A stretch of 64,000 nucleotides of DNA from Posidoniimonas polymericola. Its GTDB lineage: Bacteria; Planctomycetota; Planctomycetia; Pirellulales; Lacipirellulaceae. Shown here in pieces: positions 26,267 through 37,240 of this stretch. The stretch covers positions 186,001 to 250,000 of the forward strand of contig NZ_SJPO01000002.1 in NCBI RefSeq assembly GCF_007859935.1. Direction: 5' to 3'. Numbering within the stretch: the first letter of the stretch is position 1; every line of letters begins with the position of its first letter. Below the pieces are notes generated by a model. The model saw only the letters and a program-made list of their open reading frames with translations. It was not told where the DNA came from and ran no database searches. Position numbers and translations under genes: made by a program.

Positions 26267-26794
26267 ATGGAAGCCGCCGACTTCCCGCCCGACCCTTCGA
26301 TCTCGCTGCGTGAAGCGGCCGAGTCGGACCTGCCCGCGATTGTTGAGATCTACAACGCCGCGATCCCGTCGCGGACCTCCAACGCCGACCTGCGGCTGGT
26401 CACGGTCGAGAGCCGGCGGGACTGGTACCACGCGCACTCGGCCGAACGCCGCCCGCTGTGGGTTGCCGAGCGGGACGGCAAGGTGGTCGCCTGGGTGGGG
26501 CTGTCGGACTTCCTCCCCCGCTACGCCTACCACATCACCGCCGAGGCCAGCGTCTACGTCGACCCATCGCTGCAGGGCCAGGGCGTCGGCCCCTGGATGA
26601 TGCAGCGGCTGATCGACGAGTGCCCGTCGCTCGGAGTCGAGAACATCATCTCGCTCGTGTTCGCCCACAACAAGCCGAGCCTCAAGGTCCACGAGCGGCT
26701 TGGCTTCCAACGCTGGGGCCTGCTGCCCGGCGTCACCAAGCTCGACGACGCGCGCGGTGATGTCGTGGTGCTCGGCCGGAAGATCGGCGCGTAG
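26267..26794 (+). CDS. GNAT acetyltransferase, phosphinothricin acetyltransferase-like
   Basis: A 175-residue GNAT-fold protein. Motif A, the acetyl-CoA pyrophosphate loop, is LQGQGVGPWMMQRLID at about residues 103-118. The N-terminal part (LREAAESDLPAIVEIYNAAI) and HNKPSLKVHERLGFQRWGLL are characteristic of the PAT/methionine sulfoximine acetyltransferase subgroup. These enzymes acetylate amino groups of small toxic amino-acid analogues; the true substrate here is unknown. ATG 26267 gives the family-like start; an in-frame ATG at 26225 adds 14 proline-rich residues. It ends 58 bases before the GH43 gene on the same strand. Confidence 0.85.
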   Translation: MEAADFPPDPSISLREAAESDLPAIVEIYNAAIPSRTSNADLRLVTVESRRDWYHAHSAERRPLWVAERDGKVVAWVGLSDFLPRYAYHITAEASVYVDPSLQGQGVGPWMMQRLIDECPSLGVENIISLVFAHNKPSLKVHERLGFQRWGLLPGVTKLDDARGDVVVLGRKIGA

Positions 26795-26852
26795 AGCCAT
26801 CGTCCTGCCCCAGCTCCCTTGCCGGAGCCTCGCTGCGTGTTGTCTGCAACCC

Positions 26853-28442
26853 ATGGAGTCTGCCACCGTGACCCGCGTCCTCTCCCCTGCCCTGCTCGCT
26901 CTGGCCCTCCTATTGGGCGCCGCGGCCGCTCCGGCTGCTGACGGGCCGACCTACGCCAACCCGATCTACGGCGGGCAGGACCCCTACGTGCTGCTGCACG
27001 ACGGTGTCTACTACATCGCGGCCAGCGCGCCCGGCGACAGCGCGATTGTCGTCTTCAAGTCCGATAAACTCACCGACCCGGGCGTCAGCCGCACGGTGTA
27101 CGTGCCGCCGGCGACCGGCCCCTACAGCAAACAGCTCTGGGCGCCCGAGATCCACCGGATCGACGGCCAGTGGTACATCTACACCTGCGCCGACGACGGC
27201 GATAACGCCAACCACCGGCTGATAGTCCTTAAGGCCGACACCGACGACCCGCTCGGCTCGTACAGCATGGCCGCCGAACTCCAGACCCCCGGCTGGGCGA
27301 TCGACGAGAGCGTGTTCCGCGCCGCCGACGGCAAGCTCTACTGCGTCTGGTCGGGCTGGCCGGTCGACACCGTGCCCGACTCGACGCAGCACCTGTTCAT
27401 CTCGCGGATGGCGAGCCCGACCGAGCTCGCCGGCCCGGCGGTCGACATCTCGGGCAAGATGCACGAGTGGGAAACCCGCGGCCGGCCCGACGGGCTGAAC
27501 GAGGGACCGCAGCCGCTGCTCCGCGACGGCCGCGTGTTCATTGTGTACGCCTGCAGCGGCAGCTGGACAGCCGACTACGCGCTCGGCGTGATGGAGTGCA
27601 CCGACGGCGACCTGCTCAACCCCGACTCGTGGGTCAAGCAGCCCAAGCCCGCCTTCAGCCGCACCGACCACGTGTACGGCCCCGGCCACGGCTGCCTGAC
27701 CAAGAGCCCCGACGGCGCCGAGGACTGGCTGGTCTACCACAGCTCGATCGACCCCGAGGGCTCGTGGAACCGCTCGGTCAGCATCCAACGCTTCACCTGG
27801 ACCGCCGACGGCGCGCCCAACTTCGGCCGCCCAGCGCCGTGGGGCACGGTCCTGCCCGCCCCCTCGGGCGAACCCGCCAACAAGCTCATTAGCGAGCCCG
27901 GCGGAGAGCTGGCCGAAACCTTCGATAACCTCGACCGCTGGGAGCCGATCTGCTTCTTCCGCCGCACCTCGGTCCGCGTCCGCGACGGCGCGCTTCAGGT
28001 CCGCGGGACGCTCGACCCGCGGTACGGGGACAAGCTTGTGCTGCGTGATCGTGACTACGCCGACTTCGAGGCCGAGGTGGAAGTGAACCGCCGCCGCGGC
28101 GACGGCGCCGCCGGCCTCCTCTTCCGCATCAGCAACGCCGCGGTCGGCGTCAACCGCTACCACGGCTACACCGCCCAGTGGACCGCCGACAACCGCGTGC
28201 AGCTCGTGCGTTCCAATGGGGATGAGCTGACCGTGCTCGCCGAGGCCGACCTGCCCGGGCGGCCGAACCGCCCCCTCCACTTAAGGGTAGTGGCCCAAGG
28301 CGACCGCCTTTCGGTCTACTTGGACGGCGCCCGCAAGCCGCTTATCGAGGCTCAAGACGAAACGTATTTTACGGGAGCGGTTGGTCTGCTGTCGGGCGGC
28401 GTGAACAGCACGTTCGACAACTTCCAGGTCCGCCCTCTGTAG
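26853..28442 (+). CDS. Secreted glycoside hydrolase family 43 with C-terminal DUF1080/LamG-like domain
   Basis: A 529-residue protein with a signal peptide (to about residue 30, ending APAAD). A five-bladed GH43 propeller follows: NPIYGGQDPYVLLHDGVYYI with the base Asp, APEIHRIDGQWYIYTC with the transition-state Asp region, and NEGPQPLLRDGRVFIVYACS with the acid Glu. The last about 190 residues (from LAETFDNLDRWE) form a concanavalin-like sandwich of the DUF1080/LamG kind, ending STFDNFQVRPL. GH43 enzymes remove arabinose or xylose from plant polysaccharides. The nearby pectate-lyase genes fit arabinan or rhamnogalacturonan side chains. It converges on the PQQ-propeller gene. Confidence 0.88.
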   Translation: MESATVTRVLSPALLALALLLGAAAAPAADGPTYANPIYGGQDPYVLLHDGVYYIAASAPGDSAIVVFKSDKLTDPGVSRTVYVPPATGPYSKQLWAPEIHRIDGQWYIYTCADDGDNANHRLIVLKADTDDPLGSYSMAAELQTPGWAIDESVFRAADGKLYCVWSGWPVDTVPDSTQHLFISRMASPTELAGPAVDISGKMHEWETRGRPDGLNEGPQPLLRDGRVFIVYACSGSWTADYALGVMECTDGDLLNPDSWVKQPKPAFSRTDHVYGPGHGCLTKSPDGAEDWLVYHSSIDPEGSWNRSVSIQRFTWTADGAPNFGRPAPWGTVLPAPSGEPANKLISEPGGELAETFDNLDRWEPICFFRRTSVRVRDGALQVRGTLDPRYGDKLVLRDRDYADFEAEVEVNRRRGDGAAGLLFRISNAAVGVNRYHGYTAQWTADNRVQLVRSNGDELTVLAEADLPGRPNRPLHLRVVAQGDRLSVYLDGARKPLIEAQDETYFTGAVGLLSGGVNSTFDNFQVRPL

Positions 28443-30251: not shown

Positions 30252-33200
30252 CTACTTCGGGCGCTCGCTTCGTCGGGGTGATGCTCCGCAGGTCGCGACG
30301 AGCAGCAGCAGGCCGACGGGTTCGGGGACGGGCGTTTCACCGCCGGTCGCTGCCGCGGATCCGTAGTTGGACCGCCAGGTTTGGTAGTCCCCGGGCGTGT
30401 AGGCGCCGGACGTGTTGTCCCGCCAGACGGTGTAGTCGGCGGCGTCGACCACGCCGTCGTCGTTGAAGTCGCCGGGGAGCAGAGCGGCCTGGACGACCGA
30501 CAGCAGGCCCTGGCTCTCGAGCAGCGTGACGTCCCACGCGAGCGGCGCCGACAACGCCGGTAGCAGCAGCGAGTCGAACGCCCCGCCCTTCTGACCGCCC
30601 CAGGCGAGCAGCGGGAAGGAGTCGCCGGCGGATGGCTGGAAGCCATCGATTAGCGTGACCTCCAGCGCGCCGCCGGCAGTTAGGTCGCCCGACGCGGCCA
30701 GGGCGTCGTGGTTGTCGGCGGCGGCGAGCTCCATCATCAGGATGCCGCTGGCGGCCTGGGTGTAGTTGCCGACGATCATGATGACGCCGGCCGATTCGCC
30801 CGGCGCTACGGCGCCGCTGCTGGTGACGTCGCCGACGATCTCTCCGGCGCCGACTAGGCTGCCGCTGTCGTTGACGACGATCGTGGGCGAGTAGAGCGTC
30901 GCGCCCGGCGCAAGGCGCAGCTCGCCCTGTCCGGCGGCGCCGCCGACGCGGGTCTCGTGCTCGACCATCAGCCAGCCGGCGGCGATGGTCAGCGCGGCGT
31001 TGTCGCCGGCGTCCGGCGCGATCTCGAGCAGTCCGGCGTGCTGGCCGACCGCGTCGACCACGATGGCGCCCGACTTGATGACGGCGTTGTCGAACCGCGA
31101 CGGCTGCCAGGGCGTGCCCGCGGTGACGCCCTGGTCGTCGGTCCGCCAGTTCATGATGTTGGCGTAGCGGCTGTCGGCGCCGCCGGTGAAGACCAGCGGG
31201 GTCGGTGCGGGGAACTCGCCCTTCTCGTTGATGAACTCGATCAGGTTGATGTAGCCGTCGGCGTCGAAGTCGAGGTTCCAGTCGCTGGCCAGGTTGGGGT
31301 TGAGCCCGTGGGCCAACTCCCAGACGTCGGGCATGGCGTCGCCGTCGGTGTCGTAGTTAGCGGGGTGGCTGGTGGCGGGCGCGGCGAGCAGGGCGTTGAG
31401 TTCGCCCGAGTCGGGCGACGACAGGCCAATCGTGGGGCTGGTGAAGTTGGTGAGGTTGCCGAGGACGCGGGAGTCGATGGCGTCGCGGTCCCACCACCAG
31501 TTGCCGACGTAGTCGCGGACCTGGTTGTAGGCGTCCGGCGCGGTTTGTGTGGCGACCGCCGGCGTGGCGAACGGGCTGGCCATCTGCGTGAGCGACTGGT
31601 CGGTCACCGGCGTCGAGACCCGGAACATGGCCCAGCCGGTGTCGGCGCCGTCGACCACACCGTCGGCCGGGGTCCCGCCGGGCGCGTCGTCGGGGTCGAT
31701 GTAGTTGCCCGACTGGTAGACCCGCGAGGTGACGTTCTTGTCGACGCTGAACGCGTAGTTGGGCGAGCCCTGCGTGCCCGGCCCGGCGATGATGTAGTTG
31801 CCGACGTAGTTGACGTCGGAGTACTCCTGCTCGGCGTCGCTGCTGCCGCCGGTGTAGCTGGCTCGGTCGCGGAAGTTGTACACCACGTTGTTGCGGAAGT
31901 CGGCGGTGAGGGTCTCGCCGTTGTAGGTGCCGAACCGGGCCTGGCGGCTCGCGTTGTTGGCGTACAGGTTGTGGTGGAACGTCACCTCCGAGCTGATCTT
32001 TGGCCGGATCAGCGAACCGTACGCGTGGTTGCTGACCAGCGCGTCGTGGATCATGGTGTACTGGACGCTGATGTTTGTGTTGTTGTTGGTGACCGAGAGG
32101 ATCTCGTCCTCCGACCACGAGGCCGACAGGTGGTCGAGGATCAGATTCGTCCCCAGGCCGCTGCCCGCAAAGGTGATCGAGTCCTGCCCGTTGCCGTCCC
32201 CCTTGCGGAACGAGAGGTACCGCAGCACGACGTTGCGGTTCTCCTTGCCGCTGCTGTGGGTCAGCTGCACGGTGTCGCCGTACACAGTGACTGGGCTGGG
32301 GGCGGTCTGGCCGGCGATGTAGTAATTGGCCAGGTTCTTGATGTCGACGTTGTCCGCGATGTTGATCGTTCCGCCGACGTCGAACACGACGATCTTGTTC
32401 GCGCTGTTCTGCTGGAAGGCGTCGCGGAACGAGCCGGGGCCGCTGTCGTTGAGGTTCGTGACGTGGTAGACCGTGGCGTTGGAGAACCAGCCGGCCGCCG
32501 GCGCCGCGCCGGAGAACGTGCCGCCGTACCCCTCGGCGCCGGGGAACGCGGGGAGCTGGGCCGTGACCGCTTGAGGCGCCGCCAACGCCACGCAGGCGGC
32601 GGTGGCCAACGCATAGCGCCGCCGCTTGCCGGCGGCCAGCAGCAGCCCAACCGCGCCGATCAGCGGTAGCGCGGCCGGCTCGGGCGCCGTTGTTGGGGCG
32701 CCGGACGAGACTTCGGTCGCTCCAAAGTTCGCCCGCCAGACGTCGTAGTCGAGGCCGGTGACCAGGTTGTCGCCGTTGCCCGCGAAGTTGATCTGCGACT
32801 CGTCGGTCCCCTGGGCGTCCCGCCAGACGGTGTAGTCGGCGGCGTCGACCAGGCTGTCGGCGTTGAAGTCGCCGGGCAGGGCCGACTCGAACGCGCCGAG
32901 GTCGGGCGCCGAGCCGTTGTACGGCAGGTCGACGTCCGTGCCGGCGTCGATCAGGTTGCTGCCGGGCGCCAGCCGCAGGAAGCCGCTGACCGGCAGGCTG
33001 CCGTCGGCCTGACGCGGGCCGCGGGCGATGGTGTCGTCGAGCGACAGGAAGTCGGCCGAGTTGACCGGGATGCCGTTCCAGGTGTTGAACGAGTCGGTCA
33101 CGCCGGACTGGAAGATGTCCGACTGCGATCCCGCCACGGAGATGTTGTTGCGGAGCAGGTGCTGGTTGACGGTCTCGAACGACTCCTCGTCGAACTGCCA

Positions 33201-34163
33201 ATTGCGGTTCGAGTCGAACACCGTGGCGTTGTTCACCTGCACGCCGAAGCCGTTGCCGTTGACATCGATGCCGCGGACCTGGTTGTCCCACGCCAGCACG
33301 CGGTTGAGCACGTGCGGACCGGCGTCCTGGCCGAGCTTGAAGCCGTTGCCGTCGCCGTTGAAGTTGCCGTTGGTGAGGTTGTTCTGCTCGAGGGCGTCGA
33401 CCTCGAAGAACCGCGGAAGGATCTTGCCGTTGTCGAACGACCACGAGTCCTCGACCAGCACGCCGCCGGCGATGCTCTGCCACATGTCCCAGCCGTCGTC
33501 GGCGTTGCCCCAGGCGCGGGCGCCGCGGACCACGTTGCCGGGGCCGAGGTCGGAGAACTTGAGGGCGAAGCCGTCGGCGTTCTCGCCGTTGCTGCTCGGG
33601 TCGTAGTTCTCGTACGAGTCGGCGTTGAGGATCAGGTTGTGCGCGGCGGCCCCGCTGAGCTGCAGGCCGGAGTCGCCGTTCCAGCGGGTGACCATCTGTT
33701 CGTAGACGCCGTGGTTCGCGCCGCTCCAGATGCCGTTGTCGCGGGCGTTCTGGATGGTCAGCCCCTTGAGGTGCAGCCAGTCGGCACCGCCGTCGACCTG
33801 GATGCCCCGGCCGCTGGAGCCGCCCCACAGCGAGTTCGACATGCCGGAGAAGTCGAGGACGGGGGTCTCGTCGGCGTAGGACCAGACGCGCACCGGCGCG
33901 GCCTCGGTCCCGGCGCTGGAGCTCTGGAAGCGGACCCGGTTGTCGAGGTCGTACTGCCCGCCGCGGACATACAGGGTGTCGCCCGGCGAGAGCTGGCCGA
34001 TAGCGTAGTCGAAGCCGCCCCACGGCGAGGCGATCGACCCGCTGCCCGCGTTGCTGCCGCCGGGGGCGATGAAGTACTCGGCGGCGTGCGCCGGGGGGAT
34101 GGTCAGTGCAGCGAGTATCAGCAACGCCGCCGCGCGGCGGCAGGTCTTCACGGGGTTCGTCAT
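30252..34163 (-). CDS. Fused double pectate-lyase-type beta-helix protein with two dockerin/PEP-CTERM ends
   Basis: A 1303-residue secreted protein made of two complete-looking proteins. Module 1 (1-516) has a signal peptide (to about 30), a right-handed beta-helix (EYFIAPGGSNAGSGS..., like PL9 lyases), a dockerin-like repeat near 428-447 (DFNADSLVDAADYTVWR) and a PEP-CTERM tail, PEPAALPLIGAVGLLLAAG then KRRR. Module 2 (517-1303) begins with a signal-peptide-like stretch (ATAACVALAAPQAVTA), then a PL1-like pectate lyase (FPGAEGYGG...), a TSP3-like calcium segment, a second dockerin repeat near 1228 and a second PEP-CTERM tail. The junction codon after KRRR is TAT (32613-32615), one base from a stop. 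ATG 34163 starts the signal peptide. Confidence 0.85.
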   Translation of the reverse strand: MTNPVKTCRRAAALLILAALTIPPAHAAEYFIAPGGSNAGSGSIASPWGGFDYAIGQLSPGDTLYVRGGQYDLDNRVRFQSSSAGTEAAPVRVWSYADETPVLDFSGMSNSLWGGSSGRGIQVDGGADWLHLKGLTIQNARDNGIWSGANHGVYEQMVTRWNGDSGLQLSGAAAHNLILNADSYENYDPSSNGENADGFALKFSDLGPGNVVRGARAWGNADDGWDMWQSIAGGVLVEDSWSFDNGKILPRFFEVDALEQNNLTNGNFNGDGNGFKLGQDAGPHVLNRVLAWDNQVRGIDVNGNGFGVQVNNATVFDSNRNWQFDEESFETVNQHLLRNNISVAGSQSDIFQSGVTDSFNTWNGIPVNSADFLSLDDTIARGPRQADGSLPVSGFLRLAPGSNLIDAGTDVDLPYNGSAPDLGAFESALPGDFNADSLVDAADYTVWRDAQGTDESQINFAGNGDNLVTGLDYDVWRANFGATEVSSGAPTTAPEPAALPLIGAVGLLLAAGKRRRYALATAACVALAAPQAVTAQLPAFPGAEGYGGTFSGAAPAAGWFSNATVYHVTNLNDSGPGSFRDAFQQNSANKIVVFDVGGTINIADNVDIKNLANYYIAGQTAPSPVTVYGDTVQLTHSSGKENRNVVLRYLSFRKGDGNGQDSITFAGSGLGTNLILDHLSASWSEDEILSVTNNNTNISVQYTMIHDALVSNHAYGSLIRPKISSEVTFHHNLYANNASRQARFGTYNGETLTADFRNNVVYNFRDRASYTGGSSDAEQEYSDVNYVGNYIIAGPGTQGSPNYAFSVDKNVTSRVYQSGNYIDPDDAPGGTPADGVVDGADTGWAMFRVSTPVTDQSLTQMASPFATPAVATQTAPDAYNQVRDYVGNWWWDRDAIDSRVLGNLTNFTSPTIGLSSPDSGELNALLAAPATSHPANYDTDGDAMPDVWELAHGLNPNLASDWNLDFDADGYINLIEFINEKGEFPAPTPLVFTGGADSRYANIMNWRTDDQGVTAGTPWQPSRFDNAVIKSGAIVVDAVGQHAGLLEIAPDAGDNAALTIAAGWLMVEHETRVGGAAGQGELRLAPGATLYSPTIVVNDSGSLVGAGEIVGDVTSSGAVAPGESAGVIMIVGNYTQAASGILMMELAAADNHDALAASGDLTAGGALEVTLIDGFQPSAGDSFPLLAWGGQKGGAFDSLLLPALSAPLAWDVTLLESQGLLSVVQAALLPGDFNDDGVVDAADYTVWRDNTSGAYTPGDYQTWRSNYGSAAATGGETPVPEPVGLLLLVATCGASPRRSERPK

Positions 34164-34207: not shown

Positions 34208-35767
34208 TCATTCGCCGCGGGTGAGGTCGTGCAGGTAGACCTCGAGGTTCGTTAGACCCGGCCAGCCACGTGCGACCGCCAGCGAGTCGCCGCCCGCGTC
34301 GGCGGGATTGGCAGGGTCGAGCTGGTGGGCGCGCTCGTAGTCGTCGGCGATGCCGTCCTGGTCGGCGTCGAAGCCGCCGGGGCGGCGCTGCTCGGCGAGG
34401 TCGTCGACGCCGGGCAGCACACCGTCGGCGCCGCGGAATTCTTCCTGGGAGTCGATCACGCGTCCGTCGTGGTGGATCAGCGAGTCGATGATCCGCGTGT
34501 CGATCGCGTCCCGCCACAGGCTGGCGCCGGCGCCGCGGACGACCTGCTGGTAGGCGTCCTCGGCGGGTTGGATGGCGTCGGCGGTCGCCGGGTCGAGGAA
34601 CGCGAACGGATCGCCGGTCGTGCGGAGCGTGTCGTCGTGATCGAGCTGCGTGATGGCGGTGTCGACCAGGTCGGTCGACTCGACCGGCAGGCCGTTGTAC
34701 TGATCGTCCTCGTCGCGGTCAAACAGGTTGCCGCGGGCGTACAGCAGCGTGGGCGAGTAGGCGATTCCCCTGGCCGCGCCGCCGCCGCGGAAGAAGTACT
34801 TTGCGTGCTTGGCGGGACCGGTGATGTAGCTGTTGGCGATCAGGTTAATCCGCACCATGCCGAGCTCGCTGCGGTAGGTCGCCTGGTCGCTCCAGTTGTA
34901 GACGACGTTGTTCAGCAGGTTGACGTCGGCGCTGCCGCGGGCCGACTCGGCCAGGCCGTTCCGGATCCGCTGCTCGCCGCCCAGCGACGGGTTCCGCGAG
35001 CGGTTGTGCGCCCACAGGTTGCCGAGGAAAGTGTAGCCGCCGCGGCACGCGTCGCGGTCGTCGGCCGACAGGCCGCCGCGGACCAGCGTGCCGTAGCCGT
35101 GCGCGCCCTTGCTGTGCAGCGAGTGGTCGAGCGCCTCGGCGATCAGGCAGTGCTGCACCGTGACGTCGCGGGCCTCGGTGACGGAGAGGGTCTCATCGAT
35201 GGCCCAGGTGGCCGACACGTGGTCGAAGATGACCCGCTCGGCCCCATTGCCGATGTGCACGGAGTTGGCCTTCGACCCGACCAGGTCGCCGCGGCTGACG
35301 CCGGTTTGGCCGACCACCTCGCCGGCGGGCCGGCCGTGGAGGTCGCTGCAGCGGACCCGCAGGTGCCGCACGACGATGTCCTTGGCGCCGGAGACTTCCA
35401 GCGGGTAGCCAAACAGCGTTACGCCGCCGGGCGAGGTCTGGCCGGCGACGGTGATGCGGTCCTTCTGGATCTCGAGCGGCTCTTTTAGGTGGATCACGCC
35501 GGCGACATCAAACACCACCGTGCGCGGCCCGATGTCGGCGCGGAAGGCGTGGCGGAGGCTCCCCTTGATCTTCTCTTCGCCCCGGTGCGGCGCGTAGTCT
35601 TCGAGCGTCGTGACGTGGTAGACTGCGCCGCCGCGGCCGCCGGCGGAGGCGGCGCCCTGCCCCAGTGCCCCAGGGAAGGCAGGGGCCGCGGGCGGGCCCG
35701 CCGCCGCATGGGCGGCAGAAGCGAGCACGAACTCAACGGCCAACGCGATAACAACGATAAAACGCAT
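34208..35767 (-). CDS. Secreted pectate lyase, polysaccharide lyase family 1-like
   Basis: A 519-residue protein with a signal peptide (MRFIVVIALAVEFVLASAAHA), the typical opening APAFPGALGQGA, and a parallel beta-helix with GSLRHAFRA, TVVFDVAGVIHL, DRITVAGQTSPGG, ERVIFDHVSATWAIDETLSV and NVVYNWSDQATY. These match module 2 of the neighbouring fusion protein, so the two are paralogues. A C-terminal calcium-type segment (DADQDGIADDYERAHQLDP) follows, without a PEP-CTERM tail. Pectate lyases split polygalacturonate by calcium-assisted beta-elimination. ATG 35767 starts the signal peptide. It is 44 bases upstream of the fusion gene and probably cotranscribed with it. Confidence 0.87.
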   Translation of the reverse strand: MRFIVVIALAVEFVLASAAHAAAGPPAAPAFPGALGQGAASAGGRGGAVYHVTTLEDYAPHRGEEKIKGSLRHAFRADIGPRTVVFDVAGVIHLKEPLEIQKDRITVAGQTSPGGVTLFGYPLEVSGAKDIVVRHLRVRCSDLHGRPAGEVVGQTGVSRGDLVGSKANSVHIGNGAERVIFDHVSATWAIDETLSVTEARDVTVQHCLIAEALDHSLHSKGAHGYGTLVRGGLSADDRDACRGGYTFLGNLWAHNRSRNPSLGGEQRIRNGLAESARGSADVNLLNNVVYNWSDQATYRSELGMVRINLIANSYITGPAKHAKYFFRGGGAARGIAYSPTLLYARGNLFDRDEDDQYNGLPVESTDLVDTAITQLDHDDTLRTTGDPFAFLDPATADAIQPAEDAYQQVVRGAGASLWRDAIDTRIIDSLIHHDGRVIDSQEEFRGADGVLPGVDDLAEQRRPGGFDADQDGIADDYERAHQLDPANPADAGGDSLAVARGWPGLTNLEVYLHDLTRGE

Positions 35768-35860
35768 AGGGATCCGCGGGCTGTTCTGATGCGCAGAACG
35801 GCCGCGACCCAGTTCGGGCCGCGGCCGCACATGCAGATTCAAAAGACTACTCTTGAGCCG

Positions 35861-36628
35861 CTAGGCAGAGCGGCGACGGCCCGCCAGGGCGGCCGCGGCC
35901 AGGGCCAGCAGGCCGAGCGAAGCGGGCTCGGGGACGTAGCTGAGTACCGCGCCCGGGCCCGATTCCTTGGGCCAGAACCGCGCCTGGTTGCCACTCGTAC
36001 TTTCATTGCCGCGGAGGATCAGGAAGGTGACCTCGCCGTTGGTGTCGGCGTTGAGGAAGGCGTCAAGTGCGGCGCTCGAGAAAGAGTATTTCTCGTTGGT
36101 CACCTGCGGGCCGTACAGTTGGTCTGCTACCAGGAGCGTCAGATTAGCCGTGTCGAGATCCTGGACCTCATCGTAGGAGGCCATGGCGGCCGTCTCGGCG
36201 GTAGGGTCCATGCCGTCCGGGATAAGGCCCGGAGCGTTGTTGTAGGTGACGGTGGTCTCGTCCCAACTGGTTTCGTCGGGGTCGGTCTCGTTCAGCCCGT
36301 ACAGCTTGAGGGTGTTTGAGGCGCCGCTGTCCGAGCGCTGCCAGAACAGGTCGAGCGAAACTCCGGAAATGCCGCTCGGCAGGCCGGCCGTGGGGAACCG
36401 CAGCAGGATGACATCGTTATCGTCGGCGTCGATGTCGGTCCTGGCGTTCATCTGGTCGTTGCCGTTGCGGTTGCTGTCGGCGTCGTCTTCGCGGACCCAG
36501 GTGTCGTCGGCCACGTTGATCACCGCGGCCAGCGTCGGGCCACCCTGAATGGCGAGGATCGCTAGGCAGCTCACCGAGAAAAGAGCGGCGCCGCGGAGGG
36601 AGAGAGGTCGTCGGGGTCGCGAGATCAT
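35861..36628 (-). CDS. DNRLRE-domain secreted protein with PEP-CTERM tail
   Basis: A 255-residue protein: signal peptide (LRGAALFSVSCLAILAIQGG), a DNRLRE-type beta-sandwich starting at INVADDTWVRED and running through LLRFPTAGLPSGISGVSLDLF and SWDETTVTYNNAP, and a PEP-CTERM tail (VPEPASLGLLALAAAALAG then RRR). The DNRLRE fold often serves as a carbohydrate-binding or adhesive module. ATG 36628 is preferred because GGAG lies 8 bases upstream; the GTG at 36637 sits inside that ribosome site. It is the upstream gene of the pectate-lyase run, so it may help to hold the enzymes or substrate at the surface. Confidence 0.85.
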   Translation of the reverse strand: MISRPRRPLSLRGAALFSVSCLAILAIQGGPTLAAVINVADDTWVREDDADSNRNGNDQMNARTDIDADDNDVILLRFPTAGLPSGISGVSLDLFWQRSDSGASNTLKLYGLNETDPDETSWDETTVTYNNAPGLIPDGMDPTAETAAMASYDEVQDLDTANLTLLVADQLYGPQVTNEKYSFSSAALDAFLNADTNGEVTFLILRGNESTSGNQARFWPKESGPGAVLSYVPEPASLGLLALAAAALAGRRRSA

Positions 36629-37240
36629 TAGATGCACTCCTGCCGCTGATGCGGAAACACTGAGAAGAAAAAGCGAGAAACGTTGCTACTGAAAAGCGCG
36701 GTTCAAGGGACTCCGAAGCCGCGTCGGGACGCAACGCCGCAAGTCTTGGCAAGGGCGTCGCTACAACCACGTTAGATTTGCGCGAATTGGGAATCAACGC
36801 CCTTCATTGCAACTAGGGTCGACCTGCTTGTAACGCGCAATGTGCATGTGGAGTATGGGTGTTTGACTGCGTTCTACACGCGCTAGATGCAACTTGTGGC
36901 AGTTAGGTGCCAGTTGTTGCAGTTGGCTCTGCTGGAGGGTGGTTGCCTGCCGAGTACTGCGCAGAGATTGCAGCGACCGTGCGACGACGGTCCCTTCGAT
37001 TGCAGGAACGAGAGTTGGTCCGCCGGTCGTTGCGGCTAAGATGAAATCAGCTGAGCCGACTGCTCAGACACTATTCTTTCGTCCCTATTCTATTCCGCCG
37101 GCGTGGGCGGGCTTGTAACCCTTCGTGGCTTGGGCGTGTTCCCGCCCTTAGTAGGCTGCGTTGTTCGTGCTGTTGATACGTTGCAAGTAAATCATTCGCG
37201 TCGCCGCGTTCGCGGGGCGCCCACGGGAGGTTGTGCTCAG
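36629..37240. other. Long divergent intergenic region
   Basis: About 610 bases between the divergent DNRLRE and DUF1559 genes. Its G+C is lower than the genes around it. At 36890-36925 there is a run of repeated GCAGTT/CAGTTG words (GTGGCAGTTAGGTGCCAGTT). I see no RNA gene or credible protein; short open frames are cysteine-rich and unlike real genes. It probably carries promoters for both sides. Confidence 0.5.

Follow-up and report, generated by a model that had tools for sequence, protein, structure and literature searches.

How can a sorting tag that is defined as terminal come to lie in the middle of an exported protein, and what becomes of the sequence encoded behind it? The question is raised by a 64,000-nucleotide stretch of the planctomycete Posidoniimonas polymericola (contig NZ_SJPO01000002.1, positions 186,001 to 250,000; here called the window), in which two pectate lyases are encoded by a single frame with a PEP-CTERM tail between them. 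Internal tags of this kind depart from the definition of PEP-CTERM: according to Haft et al. (2006, PMC1569441), the motif lies near the C-terminus "virtually without exception," and 87% of the proteins have fewer than 10 residues after the model. Here, 787 residues follow the internal tail, which is thus not at the extreme C-terminus. From its sequence features, we estimate a probability of about 75% that the fused frame encodes a secreted polyprotein with a hairpin joint that is cut twice.

The frame runs without interruption from an ATG at position 34163 to a TAG at 30252-30254 and has no internal stop over its 1303 codons, which bears out the first-pass annotation of two secreted pectate lyases fused around an internal sorting signal. 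Its elements follow the order signal peptide, PL9-like pectate lyase (module 1, M1), dockerin-like repeat, PEP-CTERM tail, second signal-peptide-like helix, second pectate lyase (module 2, M2), second dockerin-like repeat, and weak PEP-CTERM tail (Table 1). Both modules are pectate lyases as judged by sequence matches, which both retain over their full length. M1 resembles the pectate lyase PelN (NCBIfam NF041899, 7e-65, under the model's cut-off), the Pel9A-like helix (Pfam PF22842, 1.4e-11, over the cut-off), and Pel9A itself (PDB 1ru4, which we take to be PL9; 3e-55). The matches of M2 are weak or depend on a profile, i.e., PelZ of NCBIfam (2.7e-16, far under the model's cut-off) and, with a seven-row family profile (A3), the pectate lyase of PDB 9buj (1e-19). 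Unlike the window's protein, 1ru4 and 9buj are single unchained enzymes. In hmmscan, Pfam Dockerin_1 had no match at E 0.001 on the first repeat of the window protein; the model does match similar stretches in other chained proteins. The internal tail has the PEP motif, hydrophobic helix, and basic cluster of the family and reached 20.9 bits (cut-off 16, E 0.0064) in a genome search with TIGR02595, and the terminal tail is weaker and absent among the 150 TIGR02595 matches listed. By its position, the internal tail is a PEP-CTERM-like internal signal and not a canonical TIGR02595/PF07589 member. Its final KRRR is directly followed by codon 517, a TAT at 32613-32615, exactly as first annotated, and this codon opens the second hydrophobic helix.

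The window's joint is one of several in its genome. TIGR02595 gave at least 150 matches in the 6.26-Mb genome of P. polymericola (G000), and among the matches listed, all but six were flagged at or over the cut-off. The distance from the tail to the in-frame stop, measured on the DNA around all 150 listed matches, was within 12 codons for 131 tails, 13-40 codons for 9, and 304-980 codons for 10, with none between. The listing of these matches set no condition on the downstream sequence; an export signal stands before the following unit at all 10 listed internal tails, Sec-like in nine and of the type IV prepilin kind in one. A linker containing an ATG precedes the second signal in one of the Sec-like cases (L083). 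In the prepilin case (L155:2089-4752, minus strand of contig C15), a PEP-CTERM protein is in frame with a type IV prepilin-like DUF1559 protein (Pfam N_methyl, SBP_bac_10), so that the joint is also used with a leader of non-Sec type. On the premise of the first-pass annotation, cleavage at an internal sorting signal would normally terminate the chain; this overlooks the many recurrences of the architecture, in every one of which a fresh export signal comes behind the tail.

Second helices at the 10 listed internal junctions have hydropathies of 2.18-3.38 (12-residue window), the lowest being that of the window's own joint; none of 5643 segments of 61 amino acids taken from inside the modules of the chained proteins of this genome reached 2.18, so that the second helices exceed what chance would give. 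The internal tails do not look decayed, since their motif scores equal those of the 140 terminal tails (medians, 34.3 versus 34.1; P = 0.72), as does their hydropathy (P = 0.45). A later joint scan added three cases, for a total of 13 joints in 11 frames. The same genome encodes three exosortases (PF09721, 2.5e-33 to 5e-38, above the Pfam cut-off), two of them with an XrtU C-terminal domain above the cut-off. As a side observation, the at least 150 listed matches compare with a count of 65 given by Haft et al. (2006, PMC1569441), which was obtained by that paper's own search.

Beyond this genome, a junction profile (A1) built from nine joints was run over 43 genomes of the family Lacipirellulaceae. 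Among the new hits listed, 38 had no stop up to at least model position 45, and all 38 proved to be true internal joints; four terminal hits taken for comparison ended within five residues, and at least 20 of the 43 genomes carry at least one joint. Among 20 stretches from the listed hits of an order-level search (196 genomes), 15 contained true joints, in five genomes outside the family; the other five (L263-L267), all from outside the family, had no real joint. A phylum-level search of 392 genomes at a strict limit of 1e-8, and hence a lower bound, added two genomes from other classes, both confirmed. Of eight other genomes, six had matches, and 1 of the 96 matches was stop-free past model position 45; the remaining matches were examined for three stretches. 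Two joints were confirmed in Pedosphaera sp. (Verrucomicrobiota), one of which had matched by its tail alone; a candidate in G588, also among the stretches examined in these eight genomes, had no stop-free joint. Separately, a match at G046:C1:294542-294652, which lies in a 7330-residue open frame, is confined to the tail part of the joint profile.

The collected total is at least 124 joints in 69 frames of 27 Planctomycetota genomes, plus the two in the Verrucomicrobiota genome. An earlier scan had yielded 124 hits, of which 121 were kept; the other three (L103, L107, and L146) turned out not to be PEP-CTERM and enter none of the later counts. The final scan applied stricter hydropathy limits, and its total of 124 coincides with that of the earlier scan by chance. 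Both ends are closed in 57 of the 69 frames, which contain 2 to 8 units, i.e., several units per frame. Where the 3' end of the frame is closed (64 cases), 60 terminate in a PEP-CTERM followed by an ordinary stop, and a changed genetic code was therefore dropped as an explanation.

The joints share a set of features that suggests how they may work. The net charge between the two helices is at least +2 in all 124 joints, a figure that is partly built in because the scan demanded two lysines or arginines near the tail. From the first basic residue to the core of the second helix there are at most 12 residues in 100 of the joints, and loops longer than 16 residues occur in 13; the long-linker joints with an ATG may be stop-loss cases. 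A strict AxA motif (alanine, any residue, alanine) after the second helix is found in 92 of 124 joints, whereas shuffled tails would give 62; relaxed cut-site patterns, present in all 124 joints, are little informative. At the window's joint, the putative cut falls between VTA and QLPAF, and stand-alone relatives have AQLPFF or a close variant at the equivalent position. The region before its second helix holds no in-frame ATG or GTG and a single TTG with no basic residue after it, and because this TTG is the sole start there, the second lyase would hardly be made and exported on its own.

We propose that the fused frame is a secreted polyprotein, with a single ribosome making both lyases. The N-terminal signal peptide would start the export of lyase 1 until the internal PEP-CTERM helix stops transfer and leaves KRRR in the cytoplasm; applied to the charge between the helices, the positive-inside rule predicts a hairpin with a cytoplasmic loop. 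The next helix, with KRRR as its n-region, would act as an internal signal peptide and resume export, bringing lyase 2 outside as well. Signal peptidase I would cut after this helix (between VTA and Q), giving lyase 2 the mature start of its stand-alone relatives, and an exosortase would then cut at PEP and sort lyase 1. The tail-signal hairpin would thereby be a reusable joint for chains of 2 to 10 secreted units in P. polymericola and many relatives. The frame, the order of its elements, the charge pattern, the recurrence, the conservation, and the exosortase genes are observed; the two cuts, to which the hairpin charge, the cut-site-like residues, the internal start pattern, and the exosortase genes point, are predicted, as are topology, cut order, and the function of the freed enzymes. 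Processing into two enzymes, an option that had been raised for this locus before, is thus the best reading, with cleavage deduced from sequence.

Was the window's fusion generated by the loss of a stop codon, as had been suspected? Among 59 genomes searched, the fused frame recurs in another genome of the genus (G001, 74% identical) and in Aeoliella straminimaris ICT_H6.2 (G021, 64%), a species of another genus that NCBI places in the Lacipirellulaceae. Both joints are stop-free and retain PEP, helix, basic residues, helix, and A-Q, with merely 46% and 30% identity, respectively, to the window's joint. A comparison with relatives, as the first-pass annotation had suggested, showed that the homologues are not uniformly fused: over 18 stretches, M1 and M2 are fused in 3, adjacent separate genes in 5 (L035, L036, L037, L038, and L045), and apart or alone in 10. 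In the adjacent separate genes, a stop after the PEP-CTERM is followed by a new start, and a stand-alone M2 gene supplies, behind a spacer, a Met and an n-region of its own. Neither is seen at the joint of the window's fused form, where the tail's KRRR takes their place. Module 2 of the window begins with AQLPAFPGAEG, and four of the five relatives with adjacent separate genes have AQLPFFPGAEG or a close variant. A point mutation of a stop at 32613-32615 is therefore not favored; because the window's joint lacks a Met and reuses KRRR, it is better explained by a deletion or recombination in the basic stretch than by a single substitution.

The phylogeny of the modules suggests a more complicated history. 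The M1 tree rejects a single clade for the three fused copies (approximately unbiased test, P 7e-37), and the M2 tree neither rejects nor supports a single origin. Since the M1 trees reject one clade of fused copies, the M1-M2 pair has probably been fused more than once, i.e., twice. The pattern could also be one fusion followed by a replacement of M1. A third pectate lyase gene, M3, lies upstream of the fused frame. In 17 other stretches, the order M3-M1-M2 is found in five; M3 stands directly before M1 in four others, two of which have M2 in front of M3; and M3 stands directly before M2, with M1 absent, in two.

Longer chains occur elsewhere. A 2531-residue frame of G068, whose 5' end is lost at a contig edge, has 10 PEP-CTERMs (Pfam), and a closed frame of 2298 residues in the same genome has 8 (loci L248 and L250). 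A closed 2427-residue frame of G086 (L260) combines 7 PEP-CTERMs with 6 sulfatase-modifying-factor (FGE) domains (Pfam), and its units form a tandem array with 27-88% mutual identity. In P. polymericola, unit identity is 52% and 55% in two chains and 25-39%, barely above that of unrelated sequences, in the other nine. These identities, high in some chains and near the unrelated level in others, indicate two routes: some chains arose when a unit was duplicated in tandem, and others are probably fusions of unrelated proteins.

A colinear fused joint in another genome (within about 10 residues) exists for 58 of the 124 joints, including 10 of 13 in G000, 7 of 8 in G001, 10 of 11 in G013, and 6 of 6 in G021. 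If at least 40% identity over at least 500 columns is required, 43 of 124 remain (9 of 13, 6 of 8, 6 of 11, and 5 of 6, respectively). Both joints of a three-unit chain of P. polymericola are colinear with those of G001, G015, G024, and G027, and one joint is colinear with that of G004; the six homologues share pairwise identities of 36-74%. Neither of the two L083 joints nor the L155 prepilin joint of P. polymericola has a colinear counterpart in the collected frames.

Several observations weigh against the proposed polyprotein. Apart from the partly built-in charge figure, 48 of the 124 joints come from one metagenome-assembled genome (G068, about 81% complete) and 76 from elsewhere; a single G068 joint has a colinear counterpart, so that 57 of the 58 colinear joints lie outside this genome, and 10 of the 58 have no counterpart at 30% identity over 500 columns. 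In hmmscans of the whole window protein, neither PEP-CTERM model reached E 0.001, and the curated cut-off of TIGR02602 is reached by none of the three exosortases. The window's own joint has VTA in place of AxA. The excess of AxA is small, which would also suit a joint that remains uncut and tethers both lyases by the two-helix hairpin as one double-headed envelope enzyme. A stop-transfer helix followed by a signal anchor would yield the identical topology without cleavage, and colinear fusion retained across genera is what a true two-domain protein would show. We nevertheless regard this as unlikely, as the internal tails have the full character of PEP-CTERM and not that of a mere helix, module 2 starts with AQLPAFPGAEG as its stand-alone relatives do, M1 and M2 are separate adjacent genes in five relatives, and unrelated units are chained in the same manner, e.g., the PEP-CTERM protein and the DUF1559 prepilin.

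Translation could alternatively start internally near the joint, so that module 1 always carries the read-through and module 2 is made independently. The window offers little for this, its only start before the helix being the TTG with no basic residue behind it, and the missing stop of module 1 in three species would be left unexplained. Elsewhere, 83 of 124 joints offer a possible in-frame start (ATG, GTG, or TTG) close to the basic cluster with one or more lysines or arginines still to come before the helix, which is a further point against the polyprotein and means that internal initiation might operate at other joints, and stop-loss-like linkers with an ATG occur in one P. polymericola joint (L083) and a few of G068. 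With no start in 5 and no usable one in 41 of the 124 joints, this explanation as a whole is very improbable. A base-calling or assembly error, or a recent and decaying stop-loss fusion, would fit the TAT that is one change away from a stop and the relatives with stop-separated genes. It has a negligible chance of being correct: the same stop-free junction is present in G001 and G021, both modules match over their full length, and further joints are found in named isolates, i.e., Aeoliella straminimaris and Botrimarina colliarenosi, and in one-contig genomes, e.g., G013 and G015. Error, recent stop loss, and decay are ruled out by the two other fused copies and the tail scores. On the whole, the fusion seen in the first pass is genuine and its processing into two enzymes is favored, whereas error, recent fusion, and loss of a stop by point mutation are not upheld.

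The polyprotein reading has parallels in known systems. The FbcH polyprotein of Bradyrhizobium japonicum contains cytochrome b and cytochrome c1, has an internal signal sequence, and is cut into two proteins. FbcH is likewise a bacterial chain, but it comprises one respiratory pair and is not known to involve a sorting tail, an exosortase, or repeated use. Structural polyproteins of flavi- and alphaviruses alternate stop-transfer helices with internal signals, and host signal peptidase frees several envelope proteins from them; those are viral genes acting at the eukaryotic endoplasmic reticulum, whereas the joints described here would act at the inner membrane of bacteria, where an exosortase is predicted to make an additional cut. 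The PEP-CTERM/exosortase (EpsH) system as described in PMC1569441 shares with the window the PEP motif, hydrophobic helix, basic cluster, N-terminal signal peptide, and exosortase genes; the difference is that here the tail lies inside the chain, with a new export signal and a further secreted protein behind it. LPXTG/sortase and GlyGly-CTERM/rhombosortase likewise use a motif, helix, and basic cluster handled by a membrane enzyme, but these signals are C-terminal as described in PMC3237569, and in the main text of that paper the words "internal," "fusion," and "polyprotein" do not occur. No description of internal or chained PEP-CTERMs was found in the literature searched, which was mainly abstracts and had most subscription papers outside its scope. 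By analogy, the device would work like known polyproteins; what appears to be new is the joint itself and how widely it serves bacterial export.

Table 1. Positions of the fused pectate lyase frame, its parts, and the neighboring lyase gene in the window.
Feature	Position	Strand	Residues	Basis or remark
Whole fused frame	30252..34163	(-)	1303 aa	
Signal peptide 1 (residues 1-28) with flanking residue	34077..34163	(-)	1-29	Read from sequence
Module 1 (M1), PL9-type pectate lyase domain	32883..34079	(-)	about 29-427	NCBIfam NF041899, Pfam PF22842, PDB 1ru4
Dockerin-like repeat 1	32721..32876	(-)	430-481	Sequence reading
Internal PEP-CTERM tail APEPAALPLIGAVGLLLAAGKRRR	32616..32687	(-)	493-516	TIGR02595; ends in KRRR
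Basic cluster KRRR	32616..32627	(-)		Common to tail and second signal peptide
Internal signal peptide 2, hydrophobic part YALATAACVALAAPQAVTAQ	32556..32615	(-)	517-536	Putative cut between VTA and Q
Module 2 (M2), pectate lyase region	31224..32558	(-)	about 536-980	PelZ, PDB 9buj
Dockerin-like repeat 2	30360..30476	(-)	1230-1268	Sequence reading
Terminal PEP-CTERM-like tail, degenerate, VPEPVGLLLLVATCGASPRRSERPK	30255..30329	(-)	1279-1303	Sequence reading
M3, neighboring gene for a third pectate lyase	34208..35842	(-)		Family library scan, comparison of stretches

The surroundings of the lyases contain a protein with GH43 and 3-keto-disaccharide hydrolase-like parts (26700-28442, plus strand) and a PEP-CTERM protein with CBM96/DNRLRE (35861-36637, minus strand), and the region looks like a plant-polysaccharide locus.

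The fusion in the window is genuine, is common to three species, and is one instance of a recurring polyprotein architecture whose cleavage into units is predicted from sequence. In the general view, bacteria rely on operons and not on polyproteins to produce sets of proteins. With moderate confidence, we suggest that a share of the exported proteins of Planctomycetes, chiefly Lacipirellulaceae, and of one or more lineages of Verrucomicrobiota is synthesized as true polyproteins with 2 to 10 units each, in which the PEP-CTERM/signal-peptide hairpin would be the standard joint, cut by exosortase and signal peptidase on either side, and that this would be an old and repeatedly invented way to obtain envelope proteins in a fixed ratio. 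To our knowledge, direct evidence of exosortase cleavage is thin. If the chains are cut, they would provide a genome-encoded test of exosortase, in which the fate of the sequence behind the internal tag can be traced. Annotation would then need correction too: what is labeled a "multidomain" protein in these genomes may really be a set of separate proteins, and an internal PEP-CTERM is no reason to assume decay. Such a joint would represent a ready-made module for the export of several proteins from a single frame.

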